Of a stretch of DNA of 25,091 nt, positions 8,696 through 16,959 are shown one piece after another. Position 1 is the stretch's first letter. Every line of letters starts with the position of its first letter. Origin of the DNA: Chloroflexota bacterium (lineage in GTDB: Bacteria; Chloroflexota; Anaerolineae; Anaerolineales; Villigracilaceae); contig JAJYOO010000004.1 in NCBI GenBank assembly GCA_021796155.1, forward strand, positions 1-25,091, in the 5' to 3' direction. The notes under the pieces were generated by a model, which was given only the letters and a program-made list of their open reading frames with translations, was not told where the DNA came from and made no database searches. Made by a program: the position numbers and the translations under genes.

Positions 8696-9547
8696 TCAAT
8701 TGCTTGCCGTTTGGATGTATTGGATAAGGCTGTCCACTTGAGCCTGAGAGAGGTTTGACCAGCGCGGCATCATGGTGTTCAAGTCGCCACCTGTTTCATC
8801 TTGTCCTTTGGTTATTGCCAGTGTGAGTTGCTGTTCCACTGTGCCGCGGCTTGGCTGGCTTTGATATGTTGTGCTCAGATCGCTCCACGCCAACGCTGGG
8901 ACTGAAATTTTCTGTCCATCCTTGTCAAACGTATTCCCCGCACGATCCTTCCCGTGACATGCAGCGCAGGCTGTTTGGTAAAGTTGTTCACCCATCAAGT
9001 TTGTTGCGACCGGCGTCAACGTAGGAGTTGTGCTAGTTGTCGTGTCCGCCGTTTGGATGTATTGGATAAGGCTGTCCACTTGAGCCTGAGAGAGGTTTGA
9101 CCAGCGCGGCATCATGGTGTTCAAGTCGCCACCTGTTTCATCTTGTCCTTTGGTTATTGCCAGTGTGAGTTGCTGTTCCACTGTGCCGCGGCTTGGCTGG
9201 CTTTGATATGTTGTGCTCAGATCGCTCCACGCCAACGCTGGGACTGAAATTTTCTGTCCATCCTTGTCAAACGTATTCCCCGCACGATCCTTCCCGTGAC
9301 ATACTGAGCAGGACAATTGATACAGCGAGGCACCAGTAAGTTCTGTGCCAGTATCTGTGGCTGCTGCGGCAGCAGCAGGCGCACTTGTTGGAGCGACAGT
9401 TGGAGCGACAGTCGTTGGCAGGGACAGCGGCGTTGGCGTGGATGGAATAGCTGTTGGGGTCTCGGTCGGCGTCGAAGCACAAGCCGCGGCAAGCACCAGT
9501 AACATTGCAGCGCCCAGGAGTAGTATGGTTAGTTTAAGAGTTCGCAT
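8696..9547 (-). CDS. Dihaem cytochrome c lipoprotein with two tandem cytochrome domains
   Basis: A 283-residue exported electron carrier. The N-terminal signal ends in a lipobox (LAAAC, C23), and a Thr/Pro/Ala-rich linker spans about 25-68. Two class I-like cytochrome c domains follow, each with a CxxCH haem site (CSVCH at 80-84, CAACH at 194-198) and a probable axial Met in TMMPRWSNLS (near 145/146 and 259/260). From the CH of each haem site onward the two domains are identical in protein and, by eye, in DNA, while the 15 or so residues before each haem site differ. It is the last gene of the NrfD-FeS / Ig-like / cytochrome operon, 71 bases after the monohaem cytochrome. The lipid anchor would hold it on the outer face of the membrane, where it likely takes electrons from the complex. 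Confidence 0.92.
   Translation of the reverse strand: MRTLKLTILLLGAAMLLVLAAACASTPTETPTAIPSTPTPLSLPTTVAPTVAPTSAPAAAAAATDTGTELTGASLYQLSCSVCHGKDRAGNTFDKDGQKISVPALAWSDLSTTYQSQPSRGTVEQQLTLAITKGQDETGGDLNTMMPRWSNLSQAQVDSLIQYIQTADTTTSTTPTLTPVATNLMGEQLYQTACAACHGKDRAGNTFDKDGQKISVPALAWSDLSTTYQSQPSRGTVEQQLTLAITKGQDETGGDLNTMMPRWSNLSQAQVDSLIQYIQTASN
8706..8960. repeat. 255-bp direct repeat, copy 1
   Basis: Identical by eye to 9048-9302 at an offset of 342 bases. It encodes the region from the second haem-site CH to the near C-terminus of the dihaem cytochrome. Synonymous positions are identical too, which points to very recent duplication or gene conversion. Confidence 0.9.
9048..9302. repeat. 255-bp direct repeat, copy 2
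   Basis: This is the partner of 8706-8960 and encodes the first cytochrome domain from its haem-site CH onward. Sequence on both sides of the repeat diverges at once (for example CSVC versus CAAC upstream in the protein). Confidence 0.9.
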
Positions 9548-9618: not shown

Positions 9619-10068
9619 TTATTTGTTCATTGCATTGAGATATGCGGCTATGGCTGCAAGTTGCTCATCGGTCAGCGCACCGGACGCGTAGGCAGGCATA
9701 CCTTTCGGTCCCACCGACGTTTTAGAGCGTAACTTGTCCGCTTTCGTTCCAACGATGGGTGGCCCGACGATACCGCCGCGTCCGTCTATGCCATGACAGG
9801 TAGCGCAGTCTTTGGTGATGAATAACTGCTTCCCATATTCAACTTGATCGCTGGCTTGCGACACCGCAAGTCCATCGCCAGTAAATGGAACGGGTGCGCC
9901 CACGAAAGTTTGTTCCGTGCGCGTATAGCGCGGATCGAAGCCCGGGTTTAGATTGGAATGGGTATAGGGACCGCGTGCAACGATGGTCAACAGCGTGAGC
10001 GCGATCACCAGCACAGCGGCGCCGATGAAAGCGGGTAGAAGCATGTTCTTGGTGGAATATTGTGTCAT
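9619..10068 (-). CDS. Membrane-anchored monohaem cytochrome c
   Basis: A 149-residue protein with one N-terminal membrane segment (about 9-31) that looks like an uncleaved anchor, a linker of about 45 residues, and a class I cytochrome c domain with the haem site CATCH (88-92) and a probable axial Met in GPKGMPAY (M124). The start overlaps the stop of the upstream Ig-like gene by 4 bases (ATGA), so the two are translationally coupled. By position and size it resembles the monohaem cytochrome of alternative complex III-like operons (comparison by layout only). It probably passes electrons from the iron-sulfur subunit to the dihaem lipoprotein cytochrome or an oxidase (inference). Confidence 0.9.
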   Translation of the reverse strand: MTQYSTKNMLLPAFIGAAVLVIALTLLTIVARGPYTHSNLNPGFDPRYTRTEQTFVGAPVPFTGDGLAVSQASDQVEYGKQLFITKDCATCHGIDGRGGIVGPPIVGTKADKLRSKTSVGPKGMPAYASGALTDEQLAAIAAYLNAMNK

Positions 10069-10757
10069 AGCGAACTCCCCGGATTTGAGGAAGCTGGATC
10101 TTCATCGTTCTCGCGTCCAGCTGCAGCCACACGAAAGACAAATGTCACAGCAAAGAAATACGTCGCCCACACAAGGAGCAACACGGCGGCGATGGGCCAG
10201 CCGTTCATTGCGGGCCACAGGCTTCGTATAAATCCAGCAAGACCCTGCTGCGATTGGATGGAGGCTTGTGGCGCGCCGACTGGTGGCACGTTGAAACCTG
10301 GAATATCCACGCCGATATGATCAACATACACCTGGTCTTCGCCGACAGCGGCTATCTGGGCCGTTGCATTCGACGCGGCGTATTGTGCATCTCCGCGAAA
10401 TTCGGCGTGCAGGGTGATCGCCTCGGAGAAATCGTCCGTGAATTCGGCGACCGCTTGACCGTCTTTGTTGGTCACAGCTTGGGCCAACACCACATCGCCG
10501 CTATTGTTCAAGAAAGTCGCGTTTGTAGTGAAGTAAACAGTTTCCTTGGAAATCGGATTCCCGCGGCTATCTACCAGCAGAGCTTGCACCGTGAGCGGCG
10601 TGCCCAAATTTGCCTGTGCGGGTGCGCCAATGCTGATCTGCGTTGCTTCTTGTGCGCTTTGTGCGCTGACGGTACGCGGCGCAACTATCAGCACGGCCAA
10701 GGCTATTGGAATAACCAACGTGCGAAGCATCGCTGCATGGAATTTCATCTTGTCCAT
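10065..10757 (-). CDS. Exported Ig-like protein with C-terminal membrane anchor
   Basis: A 230-residue protein of unknown function. It has a signal peptide (about 1-31, ending near VSAQ), a beta-rich domain (about 35-140) with the pattern of bacterial Ig-like folds (LTVQALLVDSRGNPISKETVYF, TNKDGQAVAEF), then a segment with DHIGVDIPGF and one C-terminal membrane helix (about 180-208) ending in a charged tail. The ATG at 10757 is preferred because AAAGGAAG lies about seven bases before it. An in-frame start 36 bases further upstream has none, and another ATG nine bases downstream would overlap the previous stop as ATGA. The gene overlaps the NrfD-FeS gene by 13 bases and the cytochrome gene by 4, so it is probably a structural subunit of the same membrane complex. 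Confidence 0.82.
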   Translation of the reverse strand: MDKMKFHAAMLRTLVIPIALAVLIVAPRTVSAQSAQEATQISIGAPAQANLGTPLTVQALLVDSRGNPISKETVYFTTNATFLNNSGDVVLAQAVTNKDGQAVAEFTDDFSEAITLHAEFRGDAQYAASNATAQIAAVGEDQVYVDHIGVDIPGFNVPPVGAPQASIQSQQGLAGFIRSLWPAMNGWPIAAVLLLVWATYFFAVTFVFRVAAAGRENDEDPASSNPGSSL

Positions 10758-13045
10758 GTTACGCTTCCTTTCAACTTTTCCTGCCAGGGCCACTCAGTGG
10801 GCAGTCGTCCCGTCTTATATGCGTCGCGCCCAACCAATTCTCCATGACCGGGGATGTAATACACCCGCGGCTGCGTTCCCAAATTTTCCTTCAGGCGATA
10901 AGCCGAATCTTCTGCCAGCATTTCCGAAAGCTTGACAACCTGCGCGCCGTTCGTTGCAATGTCCTCTTCCAGATCGCCATAGTAGATCGCGTGATTAGGA
11001 CACCCCTGCGCGCAGTATGGCAGTTTGCCGGTGCGCGCCATATCTGGACAGAAATCGCACTTCATCACTGTGCCTTTGATGGCCGGAGACTGGTGCATTG
11101 GATCGTATTCCATGAACGTCGCTTCAGGCGGGATGGGAGGCTGACCCCAGTTAAAGAAGCGACGGTCATACGGACAGGCTTCCATGCAAAGACGACAGCC
11201 GATGCAGCGTTGCTGATCAATCAGTACAACGCCTTCGGGTGTTGCAAATGTCGCGCCAACCGGACATACATTCACGCAGGGCGCGTTCTGACATTGCTGA
11301 CAGGGCGTGGGGATGAATTGAGTGCCACCGCCCGGCAGCGATGGTTCATAGACTTGAATCCATTCCATTGGTTGAGGAGCAAAGTGTCCCTGAATGCACG
11401 CCTCGGTGCATTGCGGCGGCTTGCCAATGGACTGACAACCGTCACAGTAACGAAGGTCAATGACCATTGCCCAACGGCGCAGGCGTTGACTGGTATTCGC
11501 GCTTGCAGAGCTTGTAGAACTATTGAATTTTTTTCCAAGGTCTAAAAAGAGTGCCGGTGCGACGACTGCACCCAGCGCCACACCGCCCATAATCTTCAAA
11601 GTCTCGCGGCGCGTCATGGATACACCCGGCATGGGCGTTTGAGGGACTTTGCTTTCGGGTTTGATTGTCCTTCCTGAACCTTGCCCTCCATGCAAGTTGC
11701 TAACAGTGTCCGACTCTTCCACTGGCTCTGGACCGCGATGTTCAACCACTTCCCAGATCGAAACCACCGGAAAGAGCTTTGCGAAAACAGAAATTATCAA
11801 TGCGAACAGTGCGAAGCCACCAGCTAGGATGGACCACTCAACCCAACTCGGAGAATAATCCCTGGGCATATAGGCCATCAGTGGTACGCGGAAGCCAGCG
11901 ACGATGATCAAATAGCGTTCAATCCACATCGCGACGAGCACTAACACTGCCGAGAAAATGATTCCTTTGATTGTCCGCGTGCGCCGGGAACTCACCAGTA
12001 ATATGGGCAGGAGGATGCCACCCAAGATATAAAACCAGAACAATCCCGCGTATTGCCCAACGAACAACTCTTGGATGTAGAAGATGATGCCTTCTTCCAT
12101 CTTGTAACCAGTCGTGATGTACTCGGAAATGTTCAGGTATCCCATGATGGCTGCCATCGCGACAAGCAAATAGCCCAGATATACGAACTGGGTCTTGGTG
12201 ATGAATTCTTCCAAGTGCAATACCCAGCGCAAGACTGCCATCAGGATGATGATCGCAGCAATACCGGAATAGATAGCACCGGCAACGAAGAACACGCCAA
12301 AGATCGAGCTGTTGAGCGGATCGCGCAGTGTCATCGCAAAAACCCAAGCTACAACGGTGTGCACCGAGACTGCCACCGGAATGATGACAATCATCATGAT
12401 GGACATGGCGCGCTCCAACGCATGACGTTGGCCGGGTGTTCCCTTCCAACCGATTGATGCAGTTGTAAAGAGCCAGCGCTGCCATGTAGGTGCTTGCGTG
12501 CCTAAACGATCCCGGCATAAAGCGAAGTCCGGAATGAGCGGCAGGTAGAGATAAATGAGGCTGCCAGTCAGATACGTGATGAGGGCGATGATGTCCCACA
12601 TCAACGGGGACTGCCAGCGTCCAAAGAGCGCCATATTCAAAATGCGGTCGGGCCGTCCCATGTCAATGGCGGGAAACAACGCCGCGACCATCAACGCCAC
12701 GCCCGTAATGAATTCCGCCATACGCGTGATGGACATTTGCCAGCGCGCACGCGTCACGCGCAGAATTGCAGAGAGCAATGTTCCGGCATGGCTGATTCCG
12801 ATGAAGAAAACGAAACTGGCGATATAGAGTCCCCATGAGATGCGGTCGCGCATGTTGGTGACGATCAGACCATTTTCAAGCTGCTGGACATAGGCGAATA
12901 GCGCCCAGCCAATCACCGCTAACAACAACGCAACCCAGGCATAATATCGCCAGCCCGTGCCGCGCAGCGGTGCGAGTACGCGTTCTTCAAGGCGTGCCCG
13001 CCACTCCGCGAGAGCGCTACCTTGATTCAGATTTAATTCATCCAT
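10745..13045 (-). CDS. NrfD membrane subunit fused to a four-cluster ferredoxin subunit
   Basis: A 766-residue fusion. Residues about 30-435 form an NrfD/PsrC-type membrane domain with many hydrophobic helices, the kind that binds quinone. After a polar linker comes a twin-arginine-like motif, MTRRETLKIMGG (477-488), plus a hydrophobic stretch to about 502. A PsrB/DmsB-like ferredoxin domain follows with sixteen cysteines in four groups: C534/537/546/550, C582/585/590/594, C614/617/620/624 and C663/666/678/682. In most relatives these are two genes, the ferredoxin carrying its own Tat signal. No obvious signal-peptidase site follows the internal Tat-like segment, so it may remain as an anchor. 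GGAGG precedes the ATG at 13045. It heads the cytochrome operon. Without a molybdopterin subunit, a role moving electrons between menaquinone and cytochromes c is likely but inferred. Confidence 0.9.
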   Translation of the reverse strand: MDELNLNQGSALAEWRARLEERVLAPLRGTGWRYYAWVALLLAVIGWALFAYVQQLENGLIVTNMRDRISWGLYIASFVFFIGISHAGTLLSAILRVTRARWQMSITRMAEFITGVALMVAALFPAIDMGRPDRILNMALFGRWQSPLMWDIIALITYLTGSLIYLYLPLIPDFALCRDRLGTQAPTWQRWLFTTASIGWKGTPGQRHALERAMSIMMIVIIPVAVSVHTVVAWVFAMTLRDPLNSSIFGVFFVAGAIYSGIAAIIILMAVLRWVLHLEEFITKTQFVYLGYLLVAMAAIMGYLNISEYITTGYKMEEGIIFYIQELFVGQYAGLFWFYILGGILLPILLVSSRRTRTIKGIIFSAVLVLVAMWIERYLIIVAGFRVPLMAYMPRDYSPSWVEWSILAGGFALFALIISVFAKLFPVVSIWEVVEHRGPEPVEESDTVSNLHGGQGSGRTIKPESKVPQTPMPGVSMTRRETLKIMGGVALGAVVAPALFLDLGKKFNSSTSSASANTSQRLRRWAMVIDLRYCDGCQSIGKPPQCTEACIQGHFAPQPMEWIQVYEPSLPGGGTQFIPTPCQQCQNAPCVNVCPVGATFATPEGVVLIDQQRCIGCRLCMEACPYDRRFFNWGQPPIPPEATFMEYDPMHQSPAIKGTVMKCDFCPDMARTGKLPYCAQGCPNHAIYYGDLEEDIATNGAQVVKLSEMLAEDSAYRLKENLGTQPRVYYIPGHGELVGRDAYKTGRLPTEWPWQEKLKGSVTWTR

Positions 13046-13233: not shown

Positions 13234-14331
13234 ATGAAAACGAGTTTACTGGCAAGCGTCAAAAATTTTGTACAGCACGGATGGAACTGGCTACTGGACT
13301 TGGATGTGCTCCAATGGGCGCTTCCAATTTTCCTGTCCATCACCGCCATCATCTTCGAGCTGATTGAGCATGTTCCGCAAAACGAACTGGATGATCCTTA
13401 CTTTTACGGCGAGATCATCATTTTTGGCATTATGGGACCGTTCATCATCCGCGGCCTCATTATCTGGATGCAGCAATTGCTGACGGCGCAAAAACACGCT
13501 GCTGCTGAAGTCCAGGCATTGAACCGTGATTTGGAAAGCAAAGTCATTGAACGCACCGCCGCTTTGGAACAGCGCAATGTGGAGCTCGATCGGCTGAACA
13601 GGGAGCTTCGCGATCTCGATGAAATGAAATCCGATTTTGTAGCGCTGGTCAGCCATGAATTGCGTGCGCCGTTGACAGCGTTGAACGGCGGATTGGAATT
13701 GGCTTTGCAGTCGAGTGAAAACCTGCCAGCGCGTTCGCGCACGATTTTGGAAATCATGGAAGAAGAAAGCAGACGGCTGACGAACTTCGTCCAGACGATT
13801 CTGGATGTGTCCCGCCTCGAAGCTGGAAAGTTTGCGATCACACTTGGACCCGTGGCTGTGCGCCCTTTGGTCGAGCAGGCCGCGGCGATTGTTCTCGCGT
13901 CGGGTCAACGCAAGGTCGAGTGGAATATCACGCCCGATTTGCCGCCGATGTGGGGCGATGAAATTTACCTGGAACAGACCATCCGCAACTTTATTTCCAA
14001 TGCTGATAAATATTCCCCGGTGGATAAGCCAATTCAACTATGTGCCTGCATGGACGGCGAAAAGATTCGCATTAGCGTCAAAGATTACGGCCCTGGAATT
14101 TCGAACGAAATGGGCGAACGGATTTTTAGTCGCTTCAGCCGGCTTCAAAGTGCGGAAAGTTCTCCGCCGGGTTGGGGTTTGGGATTGTATTTGGGACGCA
14201 AGTTGATCGAAGCACAAAACGGTGAGATTGGCTTTGTCTCACCAATTTGGGAGAACGGCGGAGTCGAATCGGGTACTGAGTTTTACATCCTGATGCCTGT
14301 TGCACAAACGCCCGAGGATGATCTCGAATGA
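13234..14331 (+). CDS. Membrane-bound sensor histidine kinase
   Basis: A 365-residue kinase with two hydrophobic N-terminal segments (about 28-46 and 60-78), a short coiled-coil-like linker (about 84-130), then the HisKA domain with the phosphorylated His in FVALVSHELRAPLT (H141). The HATPase domain has the N box NADKYS (N256), G1 DYGPGIS (284-290), the F box FSRF and G2 GWGLGLYL (313-320). The loop between the two membrane segments is about 12 residues, so there is no large external sensor domain; the signal may be membrane or redox state. The stop overlaps the response regulator start by 4 bases. The gene is divergent from the cytochrome-complex operon, which is a likely target. There is no visible ribosome binding site. 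Confidence 0.93.
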   Translation: MKTSLLASVKNFVQHGWNWLLDLDVLQWALPIFLSITAIIFELIEHVPQNELDDPYFYGEIIIFGIMGPFIIRGLIIWMQQLLTAQKHAAAEVQALNRDLESKVIERTAALEQRNVELDRLNRELRDLDEMKSDFVALVSHELRAPLTALNGGLELALQSSENLPARSRTILEIMEEESRRLTNFVQTILDVSRLEAGKFAITLGPVAVRPLVEQAAAIVLASGQRKVEWNITPDLPPMWGDEIYLEQTIRNFISNADKYSPVDKPIQLCACMDGEKIRISVKDYGPGISNEMGERIFSRFSRLQSAESSPPGWGLGLYLGRKLIEAQNGEIGFVSPIWENGGVESGTEFYILMPVAQTPEDDLE

Positions 14332-15017
14332 CTGGCCTCTTGATTATTGATGATGACAAGGGTCTGACTCAATTATTGAACGACTATTTTTCCAGTCAAG
14401 GTTACAGCGTCCGTGCCGTTGAAAATGGCAAACTTGGATTGCGTACCATGTATGAACGTCAGCCCGAAATCATCCTGTTGGATGTGACCATGCCGGAGAA
14501 AGATGGTTGGGAAACTCTCAAGCGCATCCGCGAGGTGAGCAATGTGCCGGTCATCATGTTGACGGCGCGCGGCGATGAAGCAGATATCCTGCATGGCTTC
14601 TCGCTGGGCGCAGATGATTATGTCACAAAGCCATTTTCGTTTGCTCAATTGGCCGCACGGTTGCATGCAGTTCTGGGACGTTCCGCGCAAGATAATATCG
14701 CAGAGACTAAACTTTCTGCGGATGGTCTGGAAGTGGATATTCGACTCAAGCGCGTCTGGCGGGACGGCGAACCTTTAACGTTAACTCCGACCGAATTCAA
14801 GCTGTTGGTGACTCTCATGCGCCATACAGGGGATGTGATCTCGCCGAAGGATTTAGTCAAGGAAGTATGGGGCGCACAATATGCCAACGAAATCGGACAC
14901 GTCCGTCGTTACGTCTGGCATCTGCGCCAGAAGATCGAGCCTGACCCTGAAAACCCGCGCTACATTCATAACGACCGCGGCTTCGGTTATCGGTTCGGTA
15001 GTGGGGAAGCTAAATAA
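14328..15017 (+). CDS. OmpR-family response regulator
   Basis: A 229-residue regulator with a receiver domain (1-115) and a winged-helix DNA-binding domain (about 128-225). The acidic pocket is IIDDD (6-10), the phosphorylated Asp is D52 in LLDVTMP, the conserved Thr lies in MLTARG (T79) and the Lys in VTKPF (K101). The effector domain shows LTPTEFKLLVTL and the C-terminal DRGFGYRF hairpin typical of OmpR/PhoB proteins. It overlaps the kinase by 4 bases, so the two form one unit. The direct-repeat box at 13164-13181 is a candidate site, which would imply autoregulation and control of the divergent operon (inference). Confidence 0.95.
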   Translation: MTGLLIIDDDKGLTQLLNDYFSSQGYSVRAVENGKLGLRTMYERQPEIILLDVTMPEKDGWETLKRIREVSNVPVIMLTARGDEADILHGFSLGADDYVTKPFSFAQLAARLHAVLGRSAQDNIAETKLSADGLEVDIRLKRVWRDGEPLTLTPTEFKLLVTLMRHTGDVISPKDLVKEVWGAQYANEIGHVRRYVWHLRQKIEPDPENPRYIHNDRGFGYRFGSGEAK

Positions 15018-15269: not shown

Positions 15270-15384
15270 ATACAAGCCCAAAATAAAAATCTGCGTCATT
15301 CGTCAATTCGTAGAATTCGCGTTTCGTTTTTTGAAGTAAGAGCCAATCTTTTGCTGCTATCTATGCTTGCAAAGGAGAGACATC

Positions 15385-16602
15385 ATGGTGCGGAAAACGA
15401 GCGGCAATCTTCATAATTTGAAGCCTTCATCTATCATGGTTTACGGCGCGGTCTGGTGTCCGGACTGCAAACGCGCCAAGCAATTTTTTGGTGAACAGCG
15501 CGTGCAATACAACAACGTGGACATTGACGAAGACCCGAAAAGTATCGCGTTTGTTGAAAAGATTAATGACGGAAAACGCATTATCCCGACCATCATTTTC
15601 CCTGATGGCGAAATTTTAGTTGAACCATCGAATGCACAACTTGCGCAGAAGCTTGGTCTCAAAACCAGCGCGCAGCGTTCCTATTACGATACGATTGTGA
15701 TCGGTGGGGGACCGGCAGGTTTGACATCGGCATTATATTTGGCGCGTGAAGGACTCGATGTTTTGGTGATTGAGAAGGCTGGGCTTGGTGGACAGGCTGG
15801 CATTACGCAAACACTCGATAACTTTCCTGGCTTCGACGAAGGCATTGCAGGTGCAGAATTTGCCGAGCGCCTCGGACGCCAAGCGCGCAAGTTTGGCGTT
15901 GAAATTTTGCAGGCACAGGAAGTCCGCGAGATTGATCATGATGGTCAATATCATTTTGCGGATACTGGCTCAGACACACATTATCACAGCAAGGCGGTTT
16001 TGCTGGCAACGGGTGCGCGTTATCGTCGCATGAACATTCCAGGTGAAGAGGAATTGATCGGTATCAATGTTCATTTCTGTGCAACCTGCGACGGCGCTTT
16101 TTATAAAGGCAAAAAAGTTTTGGTTGTTGGCGGTGGTAACAGCGGATTTGAAGAAGGACTCTTCCTGACCAAATTTGCAACGCAAGTGGATATCCTTGTT
16201 AATTCACCCGAACCCAAAGCCAGCAAGATTCTTCAAGACAAAGTCGCTGAGAAATCAAATATGCACGTGATTTTGAATCATGCAATTATAAAATTAAGCG
16301 GCAAAAACAAATTGGAAGCCATCCTTTTGAAAGATTTATCAACCGGCGAAGAAAAAGAGGTTCATTATGATGGTGTCTTTGTGTTCATTGGCGTGACGCC
16401 AAACAATGATCTTTTAAAAGAAAAGGCAGAACTCGACGAGCGCGGATTTGTCAAAGCGCCGCACATGATGACAAGTCTCCCTGGTGTGTTTGTTGCAGGC
16501 GACATCCGATCTGGCTCGACCAAGCAGGCGGCTTCCGCGGCAGGTGAGGGTGCGTCGGCGGCGCTGGCTGTACGCGAATATCTGAAATCGCTCGGCGAAT
16601 AG
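15385..16602 (+). CDS. Glutaredoxin-like domain fused to thioredoxin reductase
   Basis: A 405-residue fusion. Residues about 15-92 are a glutaredoxin/NrdH-like domain with active site CPDC (C25, C28) and the cis-Pro region RIIPTIIFPDG. Residues about 100-402 are a low-molecular-weight thioredoxin reductase fold with FAD motif GGGPAG (107-112), redox pair CATC (232-235), dinucleotide motif VVGGGNSG (247-254) and C-terminal FVAGDIRSG. The basic HRRxxxR loop that usually binds the NADPH 2'-phosphate is replaced by VNSPEPKAS, so the electron donor may not be NADPH. The fusion would let the reductase reduce its own attached redoxin. The start is the ATG at 15385 (AAAGGAGAG upstream); an in-frame TTG at 15367 lacks a binding site. 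A strong terminator follows. Confidence 0.92.
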   Translation: MVRKTSGNLHNLKPSSIMVYGAVWCPDCKRAKQFFGEQRVQYNNVDIDEDPKSIAFVEKINDGKRIIPTIIFPDGEILVEPSNAQLAQKLGLKTSAQRSYYDTIVIGGGPAGLTSALYLAREGLDVLVIEKAGLGGQAGITQTLDNFPGFDEGIAGAEFAERLGRQARKFGVEILQAQEVREIDHDGQYHFADTGSDTHYHSKAVLLATGARYRRMNIPGEEELIGINVHFCATCDGAFYKGKKVLVVGGGNSGFEEGLFLTKFATQVDILVNSPEPKASKILQDKVAEKSNMHVILNHAIIKLSGKNKLEAILLKDLSTGEEKEVHYDGVFVFIGVTPNNDLLKEKAELDERGFVKAPHMMTSLPGVFVAGDIRSGSTKQAASAAGEGASAALAVREYLKSLGE

Positions 16603-16614
16603 AATCAATCAATG

Positions 16615-16650
16615 ACAAATGGCATGAGTCAAATCATGCCATTTGTTTTT
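16615..16650 (+). terminator. Rho-independent terminator after the thioredoxin reductase fusion
   Basis: A perfect 13-bp stem (16615-16627 ACAAATGGCATGA with 16634-16646) encloses a 6-base loop, followed by a T-run to 16650. It lies 12 bases after the stop codon and argues that the next gene starts downstream at 16696. Confidence 0.88.
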
Positions 16651-16695
16651 GTCTTTGCAACTGGCTCATGCGATAATTCATACAACGAGGCTAAC

Positions 16696-16959
16696 ATGAC
16701 AGATTGTTGCACAGATCGTCCGACTCAAATTGTTGTTTATTCCGTTCGATGGTGCCCTGATTGCAAGCGCACCAAAGTGTTCCTCGCACAGAATCAAATT
16801 CCCCATGTCAACATTGACATTGACGAAAACCCGCAAGCTGCCGAGTTTGTCAAGCGACTCAACAGCGGCTTTCGAAGCGTCCCGACCATTTTATTTCCCG
16901 ATGGATCGAAAATGGTCGAGCCCTCTTCTGACGAGCTAAGAGTAAAATTCCAGGCATGA
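16696..16959 (+). CDS. Glutaredoxin-like / mycoredoxin-like protein
   Basis: An 87-residue thioredoxin-fold protein with active site WCPDC, cis-Pro region SVPTILFPDG and a C-terminal VEPSSDELR helix. It closely resembles the N-terminal domain of the upstream thioredoxin reductase fusion (shared WCPDCKR, DIDE, PTI.FPDG, VEPS), so the two are probably duplicates. An extra Cys-Cys pair occurs near the start (MTDCC). The start is the ATG at 16696, with ACGAGG before it; a longer reading frame from 16612 begins inside the terminator and is unlikely. The stop overlaps the FAD oxidoreductase start as ATGA, tying the two together. It may be reduced by the upstream fusion (inference). Confidence 0.85.
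   Translation: MTDCCTDRPTQIVVYSVRWCPDCKRTKVFLAQNQIPHVNIDIDENPQAAEFVKRLNSGFRSVPTILFPDGSKMVEPSSDELRVKFQA

Follow-up and report, generated by a model that had tools for sequence, protein, structure and literature searches.

A single-chain NrfD-ferredoxin fusion with an internal twin-arginine signal in a Chloroflexota bacterium

How can an iron-sulfur protein be exported in folded form when it is already joined to the end of a membrane protein of ten helices? The question is raised by one gene in a stretch of 25,091 nucleotides from a Chloroflexota bacterium (assembly GCA_021796155.1, contig JAJYOO010000004.1), called here the window. The gene joins a quinone-site membrane domain of the NrfD type to a four-cluster ferredoxin domain and holds, between the two, a motif known from signals for twin-arginine translocation (Tat). 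Its parts are as follows.

10745..13045, minus strand: NrfD-Tat-ferredoxin fusion gene, 766 amino acids in one open frame
11705..13012, minus strand: ActC-like NrfD domain (residues 12-447) with ten predicted membrane helices; Asp128, Ser146 and Asp151 align with quinone-site residues
11537..11614, minus strand: internal twin-arginine signal TRRETLK and weak helix (residues 478-503); Arg codons at 11606-11611
10826..11485, minus strand: ferredoxin domain (residues 521-740) with 16 Cys for four clusters

The fused chain and its internal signal

A preliminary description of the window had read both domains and sixteen ferredoxin cysteines from this one frame, while allowing for a frame error that merged two genes. 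The reading holds. The frame is open, Pfam NrfD matches residues 62-385 with 117.3 bits (cut-off 25.8), and the best Pfam match in the ferredoxin part is Fer4_11 at residues 576-634. Searched against 5.8 billion proteins, the sequence has 7547 matches; the best 90 of the 120 listed are protein clusters with the same fusion, including the window's own, and measure 635 to 805 amino acids. They outscore every shorter protein among the 120, and P0091, P0094, P0095 and P0098 are themselves fragments of fusions. Because 90 protein clusters have the same fusion, a frame error is ruled out, and the fusion is a true single chain. Its cluster cysteines form four groups (534/537/546/550, 582/585/590/594, 614/617/620/624 and 663/666/678/682), each of the sixteen being retained in at least 87 of the 90 fused relatives.

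The segment TRRETLK at residues 478-484 was already pointed out as an internal Tat-like signal. Its arginines 479-480 are unvarying in all 90 fused proteins and stand directly before the last helix; Leu483 is kept in 88 of them and Gly487 in 87. The commonest residue has a mean share of 0.44 in the linker (436-475), against 0.88 in residues 30-435 and 0.91 in residues 523-740. A hydrophobicity scan finds ten segments before the twin arginine, in agreement with the earlier estimate of about ten helices, one directly after it, and a weaker twelfth inside the ferredoxin (591-609). Because lysine and arginine are enriched in the even-numbered loops (5, 4, 6, 2, 4 and 7 in loops 0, 2, 4, 6, 8 and 10, against 2, 3, 1, 1 and 2 in loops 1, 3, 5, 7 and 9), the positive-inside rule, together with the even number of helices, predicts an N-terminus inside and a cytoplasmic twin-arginine loop.

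The preliminary description took an N-terminal Tat signal as the rule; internal ones have precedent. Membrane proteins with a twin-arginine motif before the last helix are described in Tooke 2017 (PMC5449189), according to which weak hydrophobicity of the last helix and positive charges govern the hand-over from Sec to Tat. In 55 of 88 fused proteins, Hessa sums rank the Tat helix as the least favourable among the eleven, though the Kyte-Doolittle scale does not in most of them; the net charge behind it (504-528) has a median of +5 and a range of +1 to +7. Helices, twin-arginine motif, last helix, positive charges and a C-terminal cofactor domain are common to the fusion and to the dual Sec-Tat proteins of that paper (actinobacterial Rieske protein, Sco3746, polyferredoxin and YkuE-like proteins). 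The fusion is real and derived, and is probably a variant of this known kind. It differs in having ten helices before the Tat helix, where those of the paper have two, three or four, and in carrying a quinone-binding NrfD unit; the word "NrfD" is absent from the main text of Tooke 2017. Another internal Tat signal seems to be present in P0122 and P0123 (P0122 is named Heimdallarchaeota), whose sequences run from PF03351 through a hydrophobic segment and a twin-arginine motif with helix to a ferredoxin with four cluster motifs.

We infer that the ferredoxin is transported by Tat and that the chain stays uncut. Alternatively, the signal could be used and then cut by signal peptidase; the mature complex would then have two chains, and co-expression would be all that the fusion serves. 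This is a possibility of some weight, though the less likely one, since the ferredoxin is a separate protein in split relatives and Ala, Gly or Ser occupies positions 514, 516 and 518 in 66, 56 and 55 of the 90 proteins; against it, column counts alone reveal no position pair after the helix with the conservation of a peptidase site. If translation could also begin inside the linker, the gene would additionally make a ferredoxin precursor on its own, its Tat signal then standing at the N-terminus as usual. In the window, residues 472 and 477, a little ahead of the twin arginine, are ATG codons, and a linker methionine is present in 54 of 90 proteins, at most 15 residues from the twin arginine in 38 (methionine only, as GTG and TTG starts are invisible in protein). 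Met477, however, is kept in only 32 of 90, and neither ATG of the window has a clear ribosome-binding site by eye; we regard such a start as distinctly improbable.

Split relatives and the order of domains

Twenty related loci in genome contigs comprise two fused (L001, L002) and 18 split ones. In every split locus the ferredoxin gene precedes the NrfD gene, the opposite of the order in the fusion. The phylum sample agrees: 17 of 400 genomes matched, both parts are listed in 10, and the ferredoxin always comes before NrfD, these genomes being partly the same as those of the 20 loci. All 18 split ferredoxin genes encode a twin arginine and a hydrophobic stretch before the first cluster; therefore a whole ferredoxin precursor seems to have been retained in the fusion. 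Next to the pair, all 20 loci have a monohaem-cytochrome match and 16 have an immunoglobulin-like (Ig-like) match; a single frame gives both matches in L016 and L018.

Two quick trees, with 23 of the 90 fused proteins sampled and with long branches present in both, place the fusion among these relatives. The 23 form one clade nested among split sequences in the tree of 54 NrfD domains (support 99), and the same 23 form one clade among split sequences in the tree of 50 ferredoxins (support 81). Because this holds in both trees, the simplest reading is one fusion event in an ActC-like lineage, with gene order reversed, in which an NrfD gene would have been joined to a complete ferredoxin precursor including its signal. 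The second fused genome carries, in addition, a split ferredoxin-NrfD-cytochrome operon (L069, G002:C289), whose NrfD is 44% identical and whose ferredoxin frame begins right at the first cluster, without a signal.

The two domains were said to be separate proteins in known families. This does not stand, as 112 ferredoxin-first fusions and ten further NrfD-first fusions were found, the latter by ferredoxin-region searches (P0124, P0125, P0130, P0149 to P0155). Three representatives of these ten have NrfD domains that share 21 to 26% identity with that of the window; P0125 resembles DsrO/DsrP, and P0130 and P0154 resemble TtrB and NrfD. In the ferredoxin tree P0124, P0125 and P0130 group with one another (support 93), outside the window's clade, so two origins of NrfD-first fusions are indicated and a third is possible.

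A twin-arginine motif with hydrophobic stretch lies between the parts in 100 of 100 classified NrfD-first fusions and in front in none of 112 classified ferredoxin-first ones, a comparison that overstates independence because the ferredoxin-first proteins are mostly one family. The association of order with signal is new here, among the fusions sampled, and it fits the idea that Sec-inserted helices must come before a Tat-exported domain. We lean towards regarding NrfD-first fusions as a class of dual Sec-Tat proteins that is so far undescribed and has arisen repeatedly, with at least two, perhaps three, origins (ActC-like, DsrP-like and NrfD/TtrC-like). Biogenesis would dictate the order in them: a periplasmic ferredoxin could stand only behind the NrfD helices, since Sec finishes before Tat starts, and a cytoplasmic one would stand in front. 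Most of P0156 to P0267 belong to a large family of ferredoxin-first NrfD fusions of about 507 amino acids without a signal, for which we know of no name.

Quinone site, operon and known complexes

The structure model of the fusion has a predicted local distance difference test score (pLDDT) of 85.3 and a predicted template-modelling score (pTM) of 0.83, and its folds match ActC and ArrB/PsrB. By sequence, the closest solved relatives of the NrfD part are ActC chains (E of about 1e-48 to 1e-50, from 21-37 to 433-459), and those of the ferredoxin part are PsrB- and ArrB-type chains. The quinone-site positions of ActC are His139, Ser164, Asp169 and Asp253 (PMC8076601). The first three align with Asp128, Ser146 and Asp151, found in 89, 90 and 90 of the 90 fused proteins. 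In the window, the fusion gene is accompanied by the following genes.

10065..10757, minus strand: Ig-like protein, Big_1 with 33.8 bits (under the cut-off of 34.9); signal peptide and C-terminal membrane helix by eye
9619..10068, minus strand: monohaem cytochrome c with N-terminal hydrophobic anchor by eye; 4-base overlap with the Ig-like gene
8696..9547, minus strand: cytochrome c carrying two CxxCH motifs; judged by eye, a probable lipoprotein; internal repeat with 342-base spacing
13234..14331, plus strand, divergent: histidine kinase, adjoining the fusion in L001 too (88% identity)
14328..15017, plus strand: response regulator paired with this kinase (92% identity in L001)

The start of the Ig-like gene is taken as ATG 10757, 13 bases inside the fusion's end; automatic calling of open reading frames gives GTG 10793. 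The repeat in the two-haem cytochrome gene consists of direct copies of 278 bases (8706-8983 and 9048-9325). As these are 97% identical, and the 263-base copies of the L001 counterpart 84%, the repeat suggests recent duplication or gene conversion. Further along the window, a glutaredoxin-like domain is apparently fused to a thioredoxin reductase-like protein (15367-16602), and a second glutaredoxin-like gene follows (16612-16959), both named by eye.

A relic signal, with the ferredoxin cytoplasmic and serving a cytoplasmic partner, seems barely credible. Ferredoxin-first fusions lack the signal, which makes it probable that some NrfD proteins work with a cytoplasmic ferredoxin, but here the twin arginine is constant inside a fast-changing linker, c-type cytochrome genes lie in the operon, and the quinone site of the NrfD family is on the P-side of the membrane (PMC8076601).

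The preliminary description had found no catalytic gene and no pentahaem cytochrome, ActD or ActF adjoining the fusion. Two molybdopterin-like proteins used as queries indeed detect no such protein in the whole window, and the four operon genes include no pentahaem cytochrome, ActD, ActF or second NrfD. This sets the operon apart from alternative complex III, whose ActC (6btm, 6f0k, 6lod, 8k9e) is the best PDB relative by sequence and structure. The fold of residues 12-447 is common to both, with two of the four named quinone-site residues identical and one Asp for His; the fusion operon lacks the molybdopterin-like ActB, pentahaem ActA, ActD and ActF, and its ferredoxin is joined to the ActC-like chain. 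In comparison with DsrMKJOP, DsrO is the best NCBIfam model for the ferredoxin part, with 172.4 bits under a curated cut-off of 200, and DsrP reaches 134 bits against 350; no DsrM, K or J gene is named in the operon. The NrfC model of NrfABCD scores 126 against a cut-off of 377.6, and there is no pentahaem partner, the operon cytochromes having one and two CxxCH motifs only. Modules of tail-anchored ferredoxin, HybB/NrfD and cytochrome c (PMC10924467) share the small set of ferredoxin, NrfD relative and c-type cytochrome; their ferredoxin, unlike that of the fusion, is a protein in its own right, held by a C-tail anchor and often accompanied by an octahaem cytochrome.

Proposed working and its meaning

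We propose that the single chain forms the core that handles quinone in a small respiratory complex facing the periplasm. Sec would insert the ten NrfD helices with the N-terminus inside, leaving the twin-arginine linker in the cytoplasm, and would release the weak eleventh helix with the positive charges behind it. The ferredoxin would take up its clusters in the cytoplasm, whereupon Tat would move the folded domain, still tethered, across the membrane. Docked over the P-side quinone site, it could take electrons from quinol and hand them via its clusters to the operon's two cytochromes, the anchored monohaem one and the two-haem one, from which they would reach an oxidase or other periplasmic acceptor. 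Computation shows the chain, its conservation, the clade, the order of the genes and the predicted folds; transport by Tat, the uncut state, the docking and the direction of electron flow are inferred.

The outer neighbours scanned in split relatives count in favour of this working. All three chosen downstream genes encode cupredoxins, and both chosen upstream genes, in actinobacterial loci, encode EB_dh.

L004:13520-14605, L019:13384-14445 and L020:12192-13319: cupredoxin-domain gene 3' of the cytochrome, split Chloroflexota loci
L014:8854-9819 and L018:753-1670: gene for EB_dh (ethylbenzene dehydrogenase-like, PF09459), immediately 5' of the ferredoxin gene in these split loci

The EB_dh-like protein could be a donor for a complex running in reverse, in which electrons from a periplasmic carrier reduce menaquinone as in Qrc. 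The operon cytochromes have one and two CxxCH motifs, not many, and such cytochromes are as a rule so oxidising that they could reduce menaquinone only with an input of energy. Although periplasmic sites for substrate and quinone are described for QrcABCD (PMC6303296), we think a reverse direction unlikely in the fusion complex.

Several observations weigh against the proposed working. The position of ActC Asp253 is Val in 75 and Ile in 15 of the 90 fused proteins. The twin-arginine loop has 8 acidic against 7 basic residues, and only 8 of 88 proteins have the Tat helix as their least hydrophobic one on the Kyte-Doolittle scale. A bc-type cytochrome b family match is present in 16 of 19 relatives' genomes, and G001, the genome with a 95%-identical protein, has an operon of the alternative complex III type on another contig, so the need for a further quinol:cytochrome c enzyme is not apparent. 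COX1 is found in 17 of the 19 genomes and not in G009 or in G002, one of the two fused genomes, and a molybdopterin-like protein with its own ferredoxin gene lies a few kilobases away in 2 of 20 loci (L006, L019); the missing COX1 of G002 and these two loci lower our confidence slightly.

The G001 operon contains a molybdopterin protein, its own ActC-like NrfD, ActD and a pentahaem cytochrome; ActF was not seen within the stretch fetched. As this molybdopterin protein is already paired with an NrfD of its own, it would be an unobvious, though possible, catalytic subunit of the fusion complex, and the latter looks like a parallel complex beside alternative complex III. The role of a minimal quinol-cytochrome c oxidoreductase, suggested in the preliminary description, thus stays plausible, with no catalytic gene adjoining, while a strict substitute for alternative complex III does not fit G001. 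Taken whole, the explanation by a quinone-handling core, Sec followed by Tat, electron flow from quinol to periplasmic cytochromes and a single origin of the fusion is in our judgement probable.

In the literature searched, we found no description of an NrfD-first fusion with an internal Tat signal, nor of the operon that, in several phyla, combines genes for ferredoxin, NrfD, an Ig-like protein and cytochrome c. If the proposal is true, Tat takes up a folded four-cluster ferredoxin tethered to a protein of ten helices, beyond the two to four helices of the described cases, and the order rule would allow natural fusions to test the Sec-before-Tat sequence of events.
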